Made by a program: the position numbers and the translations under genes
Assembly (NCBI GenBank): GCA_027491115.1
Contig: JAIXWV010000038.1
Coordinates: 1 to 64,000 of the forward strand
Direction: 5' to 3'
DNA: 64,000 nucleotides
Source of the DNA: Pseudomonadota bacterium
Lineage (GTDB): Bacteria > Bdellovibrionota > UBA1018 > CAIMNF01
Notes under the pieces: model-generated
What the model was told of the DNA's origin: nothing
Database searches by the model: none
The model's input: the letters and a program-made list of their open reading frames with translations, nothing else
Part shown: in pieces, positions 43,168 to 48,235 of the stretch
Layout of the letters: each line of letters opens with the position of its first letter
Numbering within the stretch: position 1 is the stretch's first letter

Positions 43168-43927
43168 AGTCGACCCTTTCACCCCCTTGTGCGGGGACCA
43201 TGCGCAAAGTACGGAGCTCGCGATAATTCCGGAATTCAAAGGTGAGCGGATGCCCCACCCGGGTTTCGATGCACTCGAAGGCACGGGGCTCACTCAGCAT
43301 GAAACGATGATTCGCGATTGTTTTTTTCAATATCGCATCCGGATTGAAGGGGACGGGGTAGTAGCCCGCACAGACAGTTTGGGCTGCTGGATCCAGCTCA
43401 CAGGGAACTTCGGTAGGCCGCGGAATCACACAAAAAATCGCATCAGGCGTGCAAATGAACGGACGACTCAAGCGGTCGTTTCCGAGAAACCGGAACTTGG
43501 AGCAGTATCCGAATGAAGGAGAATACCAAGTGGGCGCGTCCTCTCTTTTGGGGTTCTCCATCATCAGTCGTGCCGTTTCGTCGACATACACGGAGAGAAA
43601 TACCCCGTCAGCGCCCTCTGCATCCTGAATCACCGGATAGGATCCAGTCGTGATGTCGTTCTCGATTCGGTTGGCCTGCCCGGAAGGGGTAACCTCGAAC
43701 CGAACCTGACGCTCCACAAAAGAGAGCATTCCAGATGGAGATGCAGCAGAACCAGGAGGCTTACCTTCGAAAATCATGAGGCGAACCGGGGCAGTACCGG
43801 ACCCGCCTCTCATCTCCCGCAAAAAAATCGGTGCGCTCAAGGCTTCAGACCGGAACCGGACCTCCCCGCATCCCGCACCCCACACCAACACCCACCCGAT
43901 CCAGAAAACCTTTTTTCCGTAGCTCAT
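43151..43927 (-). CDS. Putative lipoprotein of unknown family
   Basis: 258 residues. The leader KKVFWIGWVLVWGAGC has a lipobox-like WGAGC with Cys20. The mature protein is beta-rich with about 7 further cysteines (for example FGYCSKFRF, FICTPDAIFCVIP, VPCELD), suggesting disulfides in the periplasm. No domain recognised. It lies downstream of the small-RNA locus on the same strand, but a strong terminator separates them, so it probably has its own promoter in 43930-44070. Confidence 0.75.
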   Translation of the reverse strand: MSYGKKVFWIGWVLVWGAGCGEVRFRSEALSAPIFLREMRGGSGTAPVRLMIFEGKPPGSAASPSGMLSFVERQVRFEVTPSGQANRIENDITTGSYPVIQDAEGADGVFLSVYVDETARLMMENPKREDAPTWYSPSFGYCSKFRFLGNDRLSRPFICTPDAIFCVIPRPTEVPCELDPAAQTVCAGYYPVPFNPDAILKKTIANHRFMLSEPRAFECIETRVGHPLTFEFRNYRELRTLRMVPAQGGERVDFSWGS

Positions 43928-44072
43928 TCAGCACTCACCCCTCTTGTTTCATTAAGGTGCAGAACACCTGCCAAGAGGAGATGCTGAAAACAGTAAGCAT
44001 TCCGGAAGGATGGTCGGACCGCGTCCCGCAACTGTCGACAAGTTTCGAACCACGATCCGGATTCCGGAATCC

Positions 44073-44112
44073 AAAAAGAAAAAACCCCGGTAGGAGAAAC
44101 CTCCCACCGGGG
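44073..44112 (-). terminator. Rho-independent terminator of the small RNA
   Basis: On the minus strand CCCCGGTGGGAG and CTCCTACCGGGG form a 12-bp stem (one G-U) around a 4-base loop, then TTTTTTCTTTTT. One of the strongest terminators in the window. No protein gene ends upstream of it on this strand. Confidence 0.92.
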
Positions 44113-44242
44113 CCCGTAAAGGGTCAAACCGATCACTCCGTCGATCAAGCCAATGCTTTATCCAATCCCTTGGATGGACCTCGACCGCAACCACACTTCG
44201 ATACAGTTGCCTCGTCCCTGAAGCCGATCTCACAACCGATGT
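44079..44242 (-). ncRNA. Unassigned small RNA, about 160 nt
   Basis: A 419-base gap (43928-44346) contains on the minus strand a consensus-like promoter and, about 130 bases on, a strong terminator, with no credible reading frame between. The transcript can form a perfect AUCCAA/UUGGAU hairpin with a GGGA loop (near 44161-44176), closed further out by GUCGA/UCGAC, then the terminator. It does not match 6S RNA, SRP RNA, tmRNA, RNase P or any riboswitch consensus I know. It could be a trans-acting small RNA, or a leader whose terminator controls the lipoprotein gene at 43927. Termini are estimated. Confidence 0.6.
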
Positions 44243-44248
44243 AGCTCC

Positions 44249-44276
44249 ATCGTAACGAACCCCTACCGGGTGTCAA
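44249..44276 (-). promoter_or_regulatory. Promoter of the small RNA
   Basis: On the minus strand TTGACA (44271-44276, consensus), a 16-base spacer and TACGAT (44249-44254). It points at the terminator at 44073-44112. Confidence 0.65.
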
Positions 44277-44322
44277 TTCCCTCTCGTTCTTTTTTGATAA
44301 AATATTTTATTTTCGAAACGAT

Positions 44323-44341
44323 CTTAGATTGAGAATCTAAG
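44323..44341. repeat. 8-bp inverted repeat before the methyltransferase start
   Basis: CTTAGATT-GAG-AATCTAAG ends 5 bases before ATG 44347 and its right arm merges with the AAG of the purine-rich AAGAAGG. It could be an operator or an RNA hairpin limiting ribosome access. Confidence 0.5.
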
Positions 44342-44346
44342 AAGGC

Positions 44347-45147
44347 ATGAAAGAAGACCTGAGCACACTCTGGCGCGGAAACTCCGAAGAACTCCTAAAG
44401 GCCCTGCACATTCTCACCCGGGAAGGAAAGCTGAACGCGGATTCCCGACGCAAATTGAAGCAGGTGCATCATCTTGCCCAGCTCATCGAGCCCTTGATCC
44501 GCAAACTCCACAATACGGATTCAGGAATGACCGTCGTGGACATGGGTGCCGGGAAGTCCTACCTCGGATTCATTCTCACCGATCTCTACTTGAAGCAGCT
44601 TGGCGGAGCTCGAATGATCTCGATCGAGAACCGTCCCGAGCTCGTCGAGCGCTCACAAAAACTTGCCTCGGATTCAGGATTTAGCATGATGGAATTCATC
44701 GCTTCGACCATTGGAGAGGCCCATGTCAAGGGATCGGTTGATCTGGTCACCGCTCTGCATGCTTGCGACACCGCAACAGATGATGCGATTCGCTTCGGAT
44801 TGCGACACGAGGCTCGCGCCTTCGCTTTGGTTCCGTGCTGCCAGGCGGAAGTGGCCTCACAATTGGGCGGGATCCCTGCGCCCGATCGATCCCCCCTGTA
44901 CCGCCAGGCCCTGCACCGCAGGGAGTTTGGAAGCCACCTCACGAACGTGATCCGGACCCTGTACTTGAGCTCGCTCGGTTATCAGGTCACGGTCACCGAG
45001 CTGGTTGGCTGGGAACACTCGATGAAGAATGAGCTGATCCTCGCTGAGAAAAAATCAGGACCGGAGCACCCCGAGGCACTCCGGTCCAAACAACAGCTGG
45101 AGAGCTTGCTTCAGACCTTCCCGGTCCGACCGACGCTCTTCAAATAG
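44347..45147 (+). CDS. Methyltransf_32-type SAM-dependent methyltransferase
   Basis: 266 residues, cytoplasmic. VDMGAGKSYLGFILTDLYLK is the SAM glycine motif, RKLKQVHHLAQLIEPLI precedes it, LVTALHACDTATDDAIRFGL matches the family LHACGDLT segment, and FALVPCCQAEVAS the VPCC segment. The PF13679 family includes METTL25-like and RRNAD1-like proteins and bacterial members of unknown substrate; RNA is plausible. Preceded by the 8-bp inverted repeat and an AT-rich tract. Tail-to-tail with the TonB receptor. Confidence 0.82.
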   Translation: MKEDLSTLWRGNSEELLKALHILTREGKLNADSRRKLKQVHHLAQLIEPLIRKLHNTDSGMTVVDMGAGKSYLGFILTDLYLKQLGGARMISIENRPELVERSQKLASDSGFSMMEFIASTIGEAHVKGSVDLVTALHACDTATDDAIRFGLRHEARAFALVPCCQAEVASQLGGIPAPDRSPLYRQALHRREFGSHLTNVIRTLYLSSLGYQVTVTELVGWEHSMKNELILAEKKSGPEHPEALRSKQQLESLLQTFPVRPTLFK

Positions 45148-47101
45148 AGCCCTGGATCCCGATCACGATGTTCCGTCCCGGCAAGGGCGCTAGTTCCTTC
45201 AAGAACGAAAGGTGATTGCGAGCCTCGACATCGAACAGGTTATTCGCCCGCAGAATCGCTTTCAAGTTCCCAAAACCTCCCGATAAAGGGATTTCCGCTC
45301 CGAGATTCAACATCGTATAGCCACGGGTGGCGAGCTCATTCGCAGCGATCACGTTCTGCCCTTCGACCCGCTGGAGCTCGCCGTCGATTGCAAAATAGGT
45401 CTGCTGGTAACGCACACCCACCGTTCCTCGCGCCGGCACCATCCGAGGCAGATTTCCGCCTCCGCCGAGATCCAGGCCACGCATCCAGTCGGCCTTGAAG
45501 TCGAACTCCCAGTTTCCGCTCAAAAAGGCCTGCTCCAGCTTGTGGGTATACTCGAATTCCGCTCCGAACAGGCGGGCAGGAGTCGCACGAAACTCGTAGA
45601 TCTCCAGATCGTCCGTCGTATCCCCGGGCGTCCCCATGTCATCCTGGGATCCCGTTGGGGTTAGCGCGAGGTAATTCCGGAAATCCTGAACATAGGTGGT
45701 GAACCGTGCTTCATTTTGGCGATCCTTCACCTTCAGCGAGGCCTCCAGGCCAAGGTTTTTCTCGGTCCGGAACGAGCTATTACCCTTTTCGACAATCCCT
45801 GTAGCCATGTGAGCTCCGTCTGCGAAAAGCTCCTGATAGTTGGGAGCACGCTCGGTATAGGTCGAGTTCAAACCGACAGTCCATTCTTGACCCGTGATCG
45901 GAGCTGGAACATCCACCTGGAACCCGAGCGAGCCGCTCGGAGCAAAGAAGTTCCGAGACGTTTCTTCGGTGAGCAGATCTCCCGCCTCACCCGTCACGGA
46001 AGAAGCATCAAGCCTGACCCCGACCGAAGGACGGATCGCACCCCACTTCGCCTCTTGGAGGCCGAAGAGTGCCCAAGACGAACTCCGGTTCGTCGGAAGG
46101 AAGGCCTCATCACCGAGCGCACTCAGACGCGAATACTGTTGCTGAAGCCCAAAGGTAGTGTTCCCGCTCTTCGCATCCACCCGCGATTCAATCCCGCGGT
46201 TCCGGAACACCGTTCCGATTTCACCACCTTCACGCTCTTGATGCTCGTACTTGGTGTAGGCCGACTTGAAGCGGATCGAGTCGAAGAACGCAACGCGCTT
46301 GATCTCGCCAGCGGCATCCAACCTGACCCGATCCATCCCGATCCGCACCTCTTCCTCGGCCACGGTCCCGTAGTCAGTGAGAAAGCCCGAAAGCGCCAGG
46401 CCCACGAATCCGTTCTCAAACGGACGACTGATCCCGATCGCGGCCTGAGAAGTCCGGTTCGAGCTGTTCTCGACCTCTTCTTGCGCTGTGGGAACCGCAT
46501 AGTTCTCGGTACTCCGGATCGTTCCGTCGATGTGGAACACAAAATCCCCGAGCTTGTAGCAGGCCACTCCGCCCGCTGCTTTTCCTTGATCCACACTCGA
46601 ATACCGGAGGCTGAAGTCGGAATGTCCAGTTTCGATGCCAGTTTCTGAGATCCGGTTGGTCCGCAGGTTCACCACCCCACCGACTGCGCTGTTACCGTAC
46701 AGAAGCGCCGATGGGCCTCGCAAAATCTCAACCGACTCCAGCAGCAAGGGATCGATGGCTACAGCATGGTCCGGACTGGCGCCCGAGGCATCGAGCAGGC
46801 CAATTCCGTTCTCGAGCATTCGGACCCGGTCTCCATCCAAACCCCGAATCACAGGTCGGGAGGCGTTCGGACCGAAGAAGCTCGAGCTCACCCCGACTTC
46901 CTGCGAGAGTGTTTCTCCGAGCGTGGTCTGTTTCTTACGGTCGAGTTTGGCTCCACCGATTTTGGAAACGGTCGGCAAGAAATCGAATGCCGAGCGGCGC
47001 TCCGGGGTTCCGAGCACGCTGATTTCAGGGAGCTCGAGCTCGTGGGCGGTGGCAGAGAACACGGGTAGATACAGGGCCAAAAGAATGAGTTGGGTCTTCA
47101 T
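45140..47101 (-). CDS. TonB-dependent outer-membrane receptor, ZnuD-like
   Basis: 653 residues. Signal peptide LILLALYLPVFSATA, plug domain with TTLGETLSQEVGVSSSFFGP, RPVIRGLDGDRVRMLENG, DHAVAIDPLLLESVEILRGP and GNSAVGGVVNLRT, then the 22-strand barrel ending in a C-terminal aromatic-poor IGIQGSI. The SPDHAVAID segment followed by SVEILRGPSALLYG resembles ZnuD zinc receptors (SPDHAxxxDP), although His-rich loops are lacking. Ribosome-binding site AAGGA. Forms a unit with tonB and the Fur-family gene, with a matching inverted repeat upstream. Confidence 0.9.
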   Translation of the reverse strand: MKTQLILLALYLPVFSATAHELELPEISVLGTPERRSAFDFLPTVSKIGGAKLDRKKQTTLGETLSQEVGVSSSFFGPNASRPVIRGLDGDRVRMLENGIGLLDASGASPDHAVAIDPLLLESVEILRGPSALLYGNSAVGGVVNLRTNRISETGIETGHSDFSLRYSSVDQGKAAGGVACYKLGDFVFHIDGTIRSTENYAVPTAQEEVENSSNRTSQAAIGISRPFENGFVGLALSGFLTDYGTVAEEEVRIGMDRVRLDAAGEIKRVAFFDSIRFKSAYTKYEHQEREGGEIGTVFRNRGIESRVDAKSGNTTFGLQQQYSRLSALGDEAFLPTNRSSSWALFGLQEAKWGAIRPSVGVRLDASSVTGEAGDLLTEETSRNFFAPSGSLGFQVDVPAPITGQEWTVGLNSTYTERAPNYQELFADGAHMATGIVEKGNSSFRTEKNLGLEASLKVKDRQNEARFTTYVQDFRNYLALTPTGSQDDMGTPGDTTDDLEIYEFRATPARLFGAEFEYTHKLEQAFLSGNWEFDFKADWMRGLDLGGGGNLPRMVPARGTVGVRYQQTYFAIDGELQRVEGQNVIAANELATRGYTMLNLGAEIPLSGGFGNLKAILRANNLFDVEARNHLSFLKELAPLPGRNIVIGIQGSI

Positions 47102-47121
47102 GGTCCTTAACGCTAATTCAA

Positions 47122-47138
47122 ATGCAACCAGTTTGCAT
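47122..47138. promoter_or_regulatory. Inverted-repeat operator upstream of the TonB receptor
   Basis: ATGCAA-CCAGT-TTGCAT, perfect 6-base arms, in the 45-base gap between tonB and the receptor ATG. Its top-strand core TGCAACCA recurs at 47783-47790 before the Fur-family gene. Candidate binding site of that regulator. Confidence 0.5.
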
Positions 47139-47146
47139 CTAAAAAA

Positions 47147-47740
47147 TCAGCGGAGCTGGAAGCGGATGGGGATATGGAGGATGACCGCCTTCCCTGTCGG
47201 AACGGGTGCCAATCGCCCGACAGCTCTCACCGCCTCGAGCGCCGCCCGATTCAGGCTCTCGAAAGGACTCGCATTTTCAACTTCTGAGCGGAGGACTCCG
47301 CCATCGGCCGCAACTTCAATCAGGAGCATCACCGTGCCCTCCTGCTCGTTGAACTGCGCCTCACGTGGATAGCGTTTGGTCTGGTGCAGGCGGGCAATCA
47401 CTCCGGCCAAGTAGCGCTCCATTTCTCCGGGGGGCGGCCCACTGTCCTCACGATTCAGACCTGGATTCCCCGGGGTTCCTCGAGGTACCGGAGGGCTCAC
47501 CGGAGGTGCCGACGCCTCGGTTACTGTTTCTTCAGGTTCCTCATGCGGAATCCCGAGCTGATGAACCGCCTCATGGACAGCCTGCTTGACCTCTTGCTCG
47601 ATCCGGATGTTCTCGAGGGTGATGCTCTCGTCCTTTTTCTCGGGCTCACGAGAGGCAAAAAGAAGCGCCACCACCACCCCGACCAGGATGAGGTGGATCA
47701 CGATGCTCTTCAAAAAGGGGCGGCGCATGCGTTTTGCCAT
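47147..47740 (-). CDS. tonB: TonB-family energy transducer
   Basis: About 197 residues from ATG 47740 (MAKRMRRPFLKS). An N-terminal membrane anchor (IVIHLILVGVVVALLFA), a Pro/Glu-rich periplasmic spacer (about 60-120) and the TonB C-terminal domain (KRYPREAQFNEQEGTVMLLI, then LNRAALEAVRAVGRLAPVPT). The lack of a long rigid Pro repeat is within family variation. Next to its receptor and a Fur-family regulator; divergent from the latter. A TAGAAT -10 (47760-47765) with TTGCAA -35 (47782-47787) lies inside the shared inverted repeat. Confidence 0.9.
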   Translation of the reverse strand: MAKRMRRPFLKSIVIHLILVGVVVALLFASREPEKKDESITLENIRIEQEVKQAVHEAVHQLGIPHEEPEETVTEASAPPVSPPVPRGTPGNPGLNREDSGPPPGEMERYLAGVIARLHQTKRYPREAQFNEQEGTVMLLIEVAADGGVLRSEVENASPFESLNRAALEAVRAVGRLAPVPTGKAVILHIPIRFQLR

Positions 47741-47759
47741 TGATCGGAACCTTGCGCGC

Positions 47760-47790
47760 ATTCTATGGTGTTGCAGATGATTTGCAACCA
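47760..47790. promoter_or_regulatory. Shared operator and overlapping divergent promoters, tonB / fur-family gene
   Basis: GTTGCA-GATGATT-TGCAAC (47770-47788) is a perfect inverted repeat. On the minus strand it covers the -35 (TTGCAA) and spacer of a tonB promoter with -10 TAGAAT (47760-47765). On the plus strand a weak TTGATC (47740)-18-TATGGT (47764-47769) would start transcription around ATG 47777. One bound dimer could repress both genes. Confidence 0.5.
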
Positions 47791-48235
47791 TAAGCATGAA
47801 AAATCCGAATCCCTAGAGGATCGGATCCGGGGGGCCGGCCTGAAACTCACTCCGTCCCGCCTCCGGGTACTGGAGCTTCTGGAAACCAAACGCTGCCTGA
47901 TGACGGTGGATGAGGTGGTTTCAGCCCTCACCCGTAAAGCGAAAAAGAAAGCAGATTGGACCACCATCTACCGGACCCTCCTGAGCTTCACGGAAACGGG
48001 CATCGTGAGCTCCACCCTTCTAGATGATGGCGTGGCGCGTTACGAATACAGATGCCTCGCCCCCGGAGATACCCACCACCATCACCATGTTCAGTGTAAG
48101 TCCTGCGGTAAAATCGCTCCAATCGAGGCCTGTGAGATCCAGGCGATCGAGAACCTGGTCGCGCGAATGGGCTACACCGGACTTTCACACAAGCTCGAAT
48201 TCTCGGGTATCTGCCCGGATTGCCAGGAATCCTGA
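47777..48235 (+). CDS. Fur-family metalloregulator, probably zinc-responsive (Zur-like)
   Basis: About 152 residues. Winged helix RGAGLKLTPSRLRVLELLET and WTTIYRTLLSFTETGIVSS, then the dimerisation domain with HHHHHVQCKSCGKIAPIEAC and a C-terminal CPDC: both CxxC zinc-structural motifs are present. ATG 47777 has GGTG 6 bases upstream; ATG 47765 is the longer alternative. Linkage to a ZnuD-like receptor suggests Zur rather than Fur, but sequence alone does not settle the metal. The inverted repeat over its start suggests autoregulation. Confidence 0.85.
   Translation: MICNHKHEKSESLEDRIRGAGLKLTPSRLRVLELLETKRCLMTVDEVVSALTRKAKKKADWTTIYRTLLSFTETGIVSSTLLDDGVARYEYRCLAPGDTHHHHHVQCKSCGKIAPIEACEIQAIENLVARMGYTGLSHKLEFSGICPDCQES

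Follow-up and report, generated by a model that had tools for sequence, protein, structure and literature searches.

A candidate CsrA-sequestering small RNA with three GGA-loop hairpins in a CsrA-FliW lineage

The ANGGAN hexaloop is the binding motif of RsmA and of CsrA, an RNA-binding protein that regulates flagella and metabolism, and the small RNAs (sRNAs) that antagonize CsrA have been described mainly from Gammaproteobacteria. Those of Pseudomonas (RsmY, RsmZ and RsmX; Rfam families RsmY and PrrB_RsmZ) are stand-alone, terminated RNAs with ANGGAN hairpin loops, and in size they are similar to the sRNA described here. The RsmZ-2 hexaloop reads AAGGAU, the structure of RsmN with an ANGGAN hexaloop of RsmZ as ligand has been solved (PMC3791407), and CsrB of E. 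coli contains 22 GGA sequences (PMC7652899). FliW, a protein antagonist of CsrA, is notably absent from Gammaproteobacteria (PMC7652899), and BarA-UvrY, which drives the CsrA-antagonist sRNAs, is strongly anti-correlated with FliW, the sRNAs so driven and FliW being reported as alternatives (PMC4682653). The CsrA-FliW-flagellin systems of Bacillus, Campylobacter and Geobacter have been described as devoid of CsrB/C-type sRNAs, with Geobacter having FliW and no characterised Csr sRNA, and residue N55 of CsrA has been proposed as key for FliW binding (PMC13407953). A 2020 review left it undecided whether any species uses FliW and sRNAs together (PMC7652899), and our search of the open literature, with subscription papers mostly outside its coverage, found no report of a CsrA-sponge RNA in a FliW lineage.

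Here we analysed a stretch of 64,000 nucleotides (the window), in which the initial annotation had located a promoter and a terminator on the minus strand of a 419-base gap and had proposed a self-contained small-RNA gene (Table 1). Both elements were confirmed, lying about 130 bases apart on that strand, and they are kept as one promoter-RNA-terminator unit in relatives, present once per genome in 12 of the 12 genomes of the genus. Within the window alone neither goes beyond chance (1 promoter-like site observed against 0.7 expected, and 1 terminator-like site against 1.3 expected), and the folding z of the window sRNA (-1.82, from a single sequence) denotes a mild stability that is uninformative; the orthologs folded as single sequences gave inconsistent folds. 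It is because the unit is conserved across the genus that, from sequence comparison, we judge the small-RNA gene in this gap to be real and conserved.

Table 1. Features of the predicted sRNA locus (positions in the window)
Feature	Position	Strand	Description
Host gap	43928-44346		419 bases; small-RNA gene on minus strand
Promoter	44249..44276	-	-35 TTGACA 44276-44271, 16-nt spacer, -10 TACGAT 44254-44249
Predicted sRNA	44076..44243	-	about 165 nt; start near 44243-44241 deduced from the -10 box, 3' end placed in the T-run; unit kept across the genus (12 genomes) and in its sister genus
Hairpin A	44209..44224	-	GCUUC-AGGGAC-GAGGC; loop 44219-44214, CsrA-type ANGGAN hexaloop
Core	44180..44196	-	GUGUGGUUGCGGUCGAG; near-invariant, single copy per genome, first 15 bases the same in 12/12 genomes of the genus
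Hairpin B	44160..44175	-	AUCCA-AGGGAU-UGGAU; loop 44170-44165, GGA inside
Spacer hairpin	44147..44158	-	AAGC-AUUG-GCUU; three pairs with double changes
Hairpin C	44131..44146	-	GAUCG-ACGGAG-UGAUC; loop 44141-44136, CsrA-type ANGGAN hexaloop
Intrinsic terminator	44082..44115	-	15-pair stem, then T-run 44084-44073

In a blastn comparison of 40 genomes, each of the other 11 genus members gave a match to the sRNA stretch and the 28 genomes from outside the genus gave none, and the ortholog alignment delimited a conserved segment that runs from the -35 box through the terminator. TTGACA is present in 13 of 13 orthologs. The 12 genus members also share the 16-nt spacer and a TA(C/A)NAT box, and every ortholog has a terminator with its T-run, the sequence of the terminator stem differing between them. 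With a covariance model, each genome of the genus gave a single strong match (95-158 bits), and a diverged ortholog was retrieved from the sister genus, which is represented by one genome only (G012:C18:31760-31902, 46.9 bits, E 6.5e-7). Conservation in close relatives, on which the proposal depended, covers the 12 genus genomes and this sister-genus ortholog. The latter adjoins tatA, a gene also found near the sRNA in the window and in several relatives. In 369 genomes of the phylum, a second covariance model with the sister ortholog included gave no convincing match beyond these; its weak matches in G037, G128, G184 and G185 (E 0.004-0.07) were not accepted as family members, and the loci of the G037 match and of a second weak match in G008, once read, look like chance.

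The three ANGGAN hairpins are the key feature that the first reading overlooked, and they point to an action on CsrA. All 13 orthologs carry three GGA-loop hairpins, mostly ANGGAN hexaloops, with the genus consensus GCUUC-ANGGAN-GARGC for A, UCCA-ANGGAU-UGGA for B and GAUCG-ANGGAN-UGAUC for C. For hairpin A, UCANGGANGA is found in 13 of 13 orthologs with every pair kept, and hairpin C retains ANGGAN in all 13. The loop GGA of hairpin B is equally constant (13/13), being kept by all its variants within the genus, and its outer pair shows double changes. In the loops of A and C across the genus, the 8 columns fixed by the motif are all invariant and the 4 N columns are all variable; by our own arithmetic, the chance that 4 variable columns among 12 fall exactly on the N positions is 1/495. 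The GGA loops persist in the sister genus on changed stems (GCCUC-AUGGAU-GAGGU, UUCCA-GCGGA-UGGAA and UCA-AAGGAU-UGA), with CCCGG-CGGGAA-CCGGG replacing the spacer hairpin, and extra, lineage-specific GGA loops occur in a 5' hairpin (locus L018) and in the spacer hairpin (locus L182). Since three GGA loops are not rare in one sequence (shuffle P 0.01-0.19), the case for them is based on their conservation.

The covariance analysis gave a divided result. Covariation was weak on the plain, unfitted MAFFT alignment (1 double-changed pair, with 176 of 500 shuffles as high), and it appeared once the sister genus had been added and the sequences realigned to the model, a procedure that leans towards structure, where 98% of the cells pair and 4 double-changed pairs were counted against 0.7 in shuffles (0/500 as high). 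Of the two helices that had been described in the interval, the AUCCAA/UUGGAU hairpin, our hairpin B, is real, with 95% of its cells paired over the 13 sequences of the structure-fitted alignment. The GUCGA/UCGAC helix said to close it is poorly supported, as many relatives have lost its outer pair (GAUCGAG) and the sister genus the whole helix; it was dropped for this lack of conservation and for its competition with hairpin C, the conserved GAUCG-ANGGAN-UGAUC.

The genome of the window has one csrA, which lies between a flagellin-like (FlgL-type) gene upstream and fliW downstream. CsrA is encoded in 56 of 58 genomes of the class, and fliW comes after csrA in each of the 14 csrA loci fetched from relatives. 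The CsrA of the window organism, 74 aa long, has L4, R44 and N55, and a C-terminal extension. We read the flagellin leaders as an internal test of the ANGGA motif. In the window genome, 4 of 8 combine an upstream ANGGA hairpin (for example GGGUCAUGGAUUGACCC and UCGUGAAGGAUCACGA) with a second ANGGA close to the ribosome-binding site, a combination seen in 0 of 57 leaders of the window, and across the genus 27 of 35 have the ANGGA hairpin and ANGGA at the ribosome-binding site, on several different stems with the same loop, in a set that contains at least one duplicate leader and whose selection favours the best-scoring flagellins. The CsrA of this lineage very probably reads ANGGAN hairpins. 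As the other 4 flagellin leaders of the window genome lack the hairpin, the flagellins may differ in CsrA control; flagellin paralogs are many, with 6-9 Flagellin_N matches per genome (loci L191-L198 and L206-L233).

Altogether, with a probability that we put at roughly 0.75, the locus would encode an independently transcribed sRNA of about 165 nt that sequesters CsrA, like RsmY, RsmZ or CsrB although from an unrelated family, in a CsrA-FliW lineage. Three traits of a sequestering sRNA are present at the sequence level: a stand-alone gene with its own promoter and terminator, for which synteny comparison found no downstream gene shared among the orthologs; several GGA motifs in hairpin loops; and CsrA encoded in the same genome. 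The three hairpins would mimic the CsrA sites on flagellin and probably other mRNAs, and an abundant sRNA would titrate CsrA and release those mRNAs for translation, giving the lineage two CsrA antagonists, the FliW protein, encoded just downstream of csrA, and the sRNA. Several points speak against such a sponge: it has three strong sites only, far below the number of GGAs in E. coli CsrB; the near-invariant core and the 5' end are unexplained by CsrA binding; single sequences show three GGA loops not rarely; and covariation is weak on the unfitted alignment.

This core could carry a second function. Neither pairing, with a possible GGUC/GACC closing helix, nor CsrA binding would account for so strict a conservation, and part of the core is still present in the sister genus. 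Every one of the 12 genus genomes contains a single copy of the 15-mer GTGTGGTTGCGGTCG, which is absent from 46 other genomes of the class, and a broader scan of genome contigs for the 15-mer core returned chance matches only. It is conceivable, if rather unlikely, that the RNA is a trans-acting antisense sRNA pairing with mRNAs through the core GUGUGGUUGCGGUCGAG or the conserved 5' end, with GGA loops that are incidental or serve as CsrA sites controlling or stabilising the RNA itself. Conservation of the core beyond the needs of a helix, part of it surviving in the sister genus, agrees with this idea, but the three GGA loops are kept with A and C varying only at the N positions of the motif, and the sister genus retains them in spite of its altered core. 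The self-contained small-RNA gene of the initial annotation is upheld, its hairpins pointing to CsrA rather than, or besides, base-pairing with mRNAs.

The other role suggested there, a leader regulating the lipoprotein at 43927, was not borne out. A CsrA-controlled leader or attenuator acting in cis on the downstream gene would suit the window and loci L009 and L015, where the lipoprotein gene lies downstream in the same direction; however, these are only 3 of 12 genomes, and in the others that gene is missing downstream and no conserved same-direction gene takes its place. The sRNA and hpt are convergent in L012, as are the sRNA and tatA in L182, and a terminator closes every copy, which makes a leader highly improbable. 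We take the sRNA to stand alone because of the scarcity of the downstream lipoprotein gene and of this convergence with hpt and tatA. On the other side, a PF13679 methyltransferase gene is always divergent upstream of the sRNA in the genus. Between the start codon of that gene at 44347 and the sRNA promoter, the minus strand carries an inverted repeat, TCTTAGATT-CTC-AATCTAAGA (44324-44344), imperfect in its genus form TCTTA(G/T)AT-N5-ATC(T/A/C)AAGA, which may be an operator or else a hairpin in the leader of the methyltransferase gene. Further along, positions 45140-48235 contain a TonB-dependent receptor (Pfam) followed by TonB-like and Fur-family-like reading frames judged by eye, possibly a metal-uptake locus.

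As initially annotated, the sRNA matches no known family. The Rfam scan at gathering score over the window and 8 orthologous loci gave no relevant family at the sRNA, and a relaxed scan of its region, with E up to 10, gave no match to CsrB, CsrC, RsmY or PrrB_RsmZ; we therefore do not place it in the CsrB, CsrC or Rsm families, the likeness proposed being functional. Its size and single copy would also fit a housekeeping RNA (6S or SRP) too diverged for Rfam, but 6S RNA was found elsewhere in the genome (66.4 bits, contig C4) and neither 6S (RF00013) nor SRP matched at the sRNA even at E up to 10, so that we give this identity very little credence. The 6S RNA (G000:C4:4623-4799) lies about 2 kb from three flagellin genes on the same 11.7-kb contig. 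No small SRP RNA reached the gathering score in the genome, the best match having 16.9 bits (G000:C30:107844-107932), and the SRP RNA of this genome may be diverged, of another type, or absent from the assembly. A short protein-coding gene is scarcely credible, since the short open frames of each sequence, as in any DNA, keep no common start, length and stop across orthologs and the hairpin insertions are not multiples of three, in line with the earlier view that the interval holds no credible gene.

Compared with RsmY, RsmZ and RsmX, the candidate sponge RNA has no sequence or covariance-model similarity and belongs to a host with FliW, and a loose scan for a GacA-type box upstream of the orthologs (up to 4 mismatches) gave scattered weak matches, none common to all. 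Like CsrB and CsrC it would titrate CsrA through GGA hairpins, and it differs from CsrB in its three conserved hairpin sites and in having no Rfam match. The lineage resembles the CsrA-FliW-flagellin systems in the position of csrA beside fliW and flagellar genes, in the C-terminal extension and N55 of CsrA, and in flagellin leaders that combine a hairpin upstream with a motif at the ribosome-binding site, whereas it departs from them in that FliW here seems to be accompanied by a sponge-like RNA. We give even odds to the proposal that a single CsrA pool, and with it a common set of flagellin mRNAs, is under the joint control of FliW and a sponge sRNA of independent origin, with the core adding a further function, such as base-pairing or the binding of another protein.

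FliW was previously thought to replace CsrA-sponge RNAs, and here both types of antagonist would occur in one lineage. A genus of 12 species with csrA-fliW, two-site flagellin leaders and a motif-bearing sRNA makes the joint use of FliW and sRNAs directly testable, and the window sRNA provides a template with which to look for comparable RNAs in further FliW lineages without characterised ones, such as Geobacter (PMC13407953).
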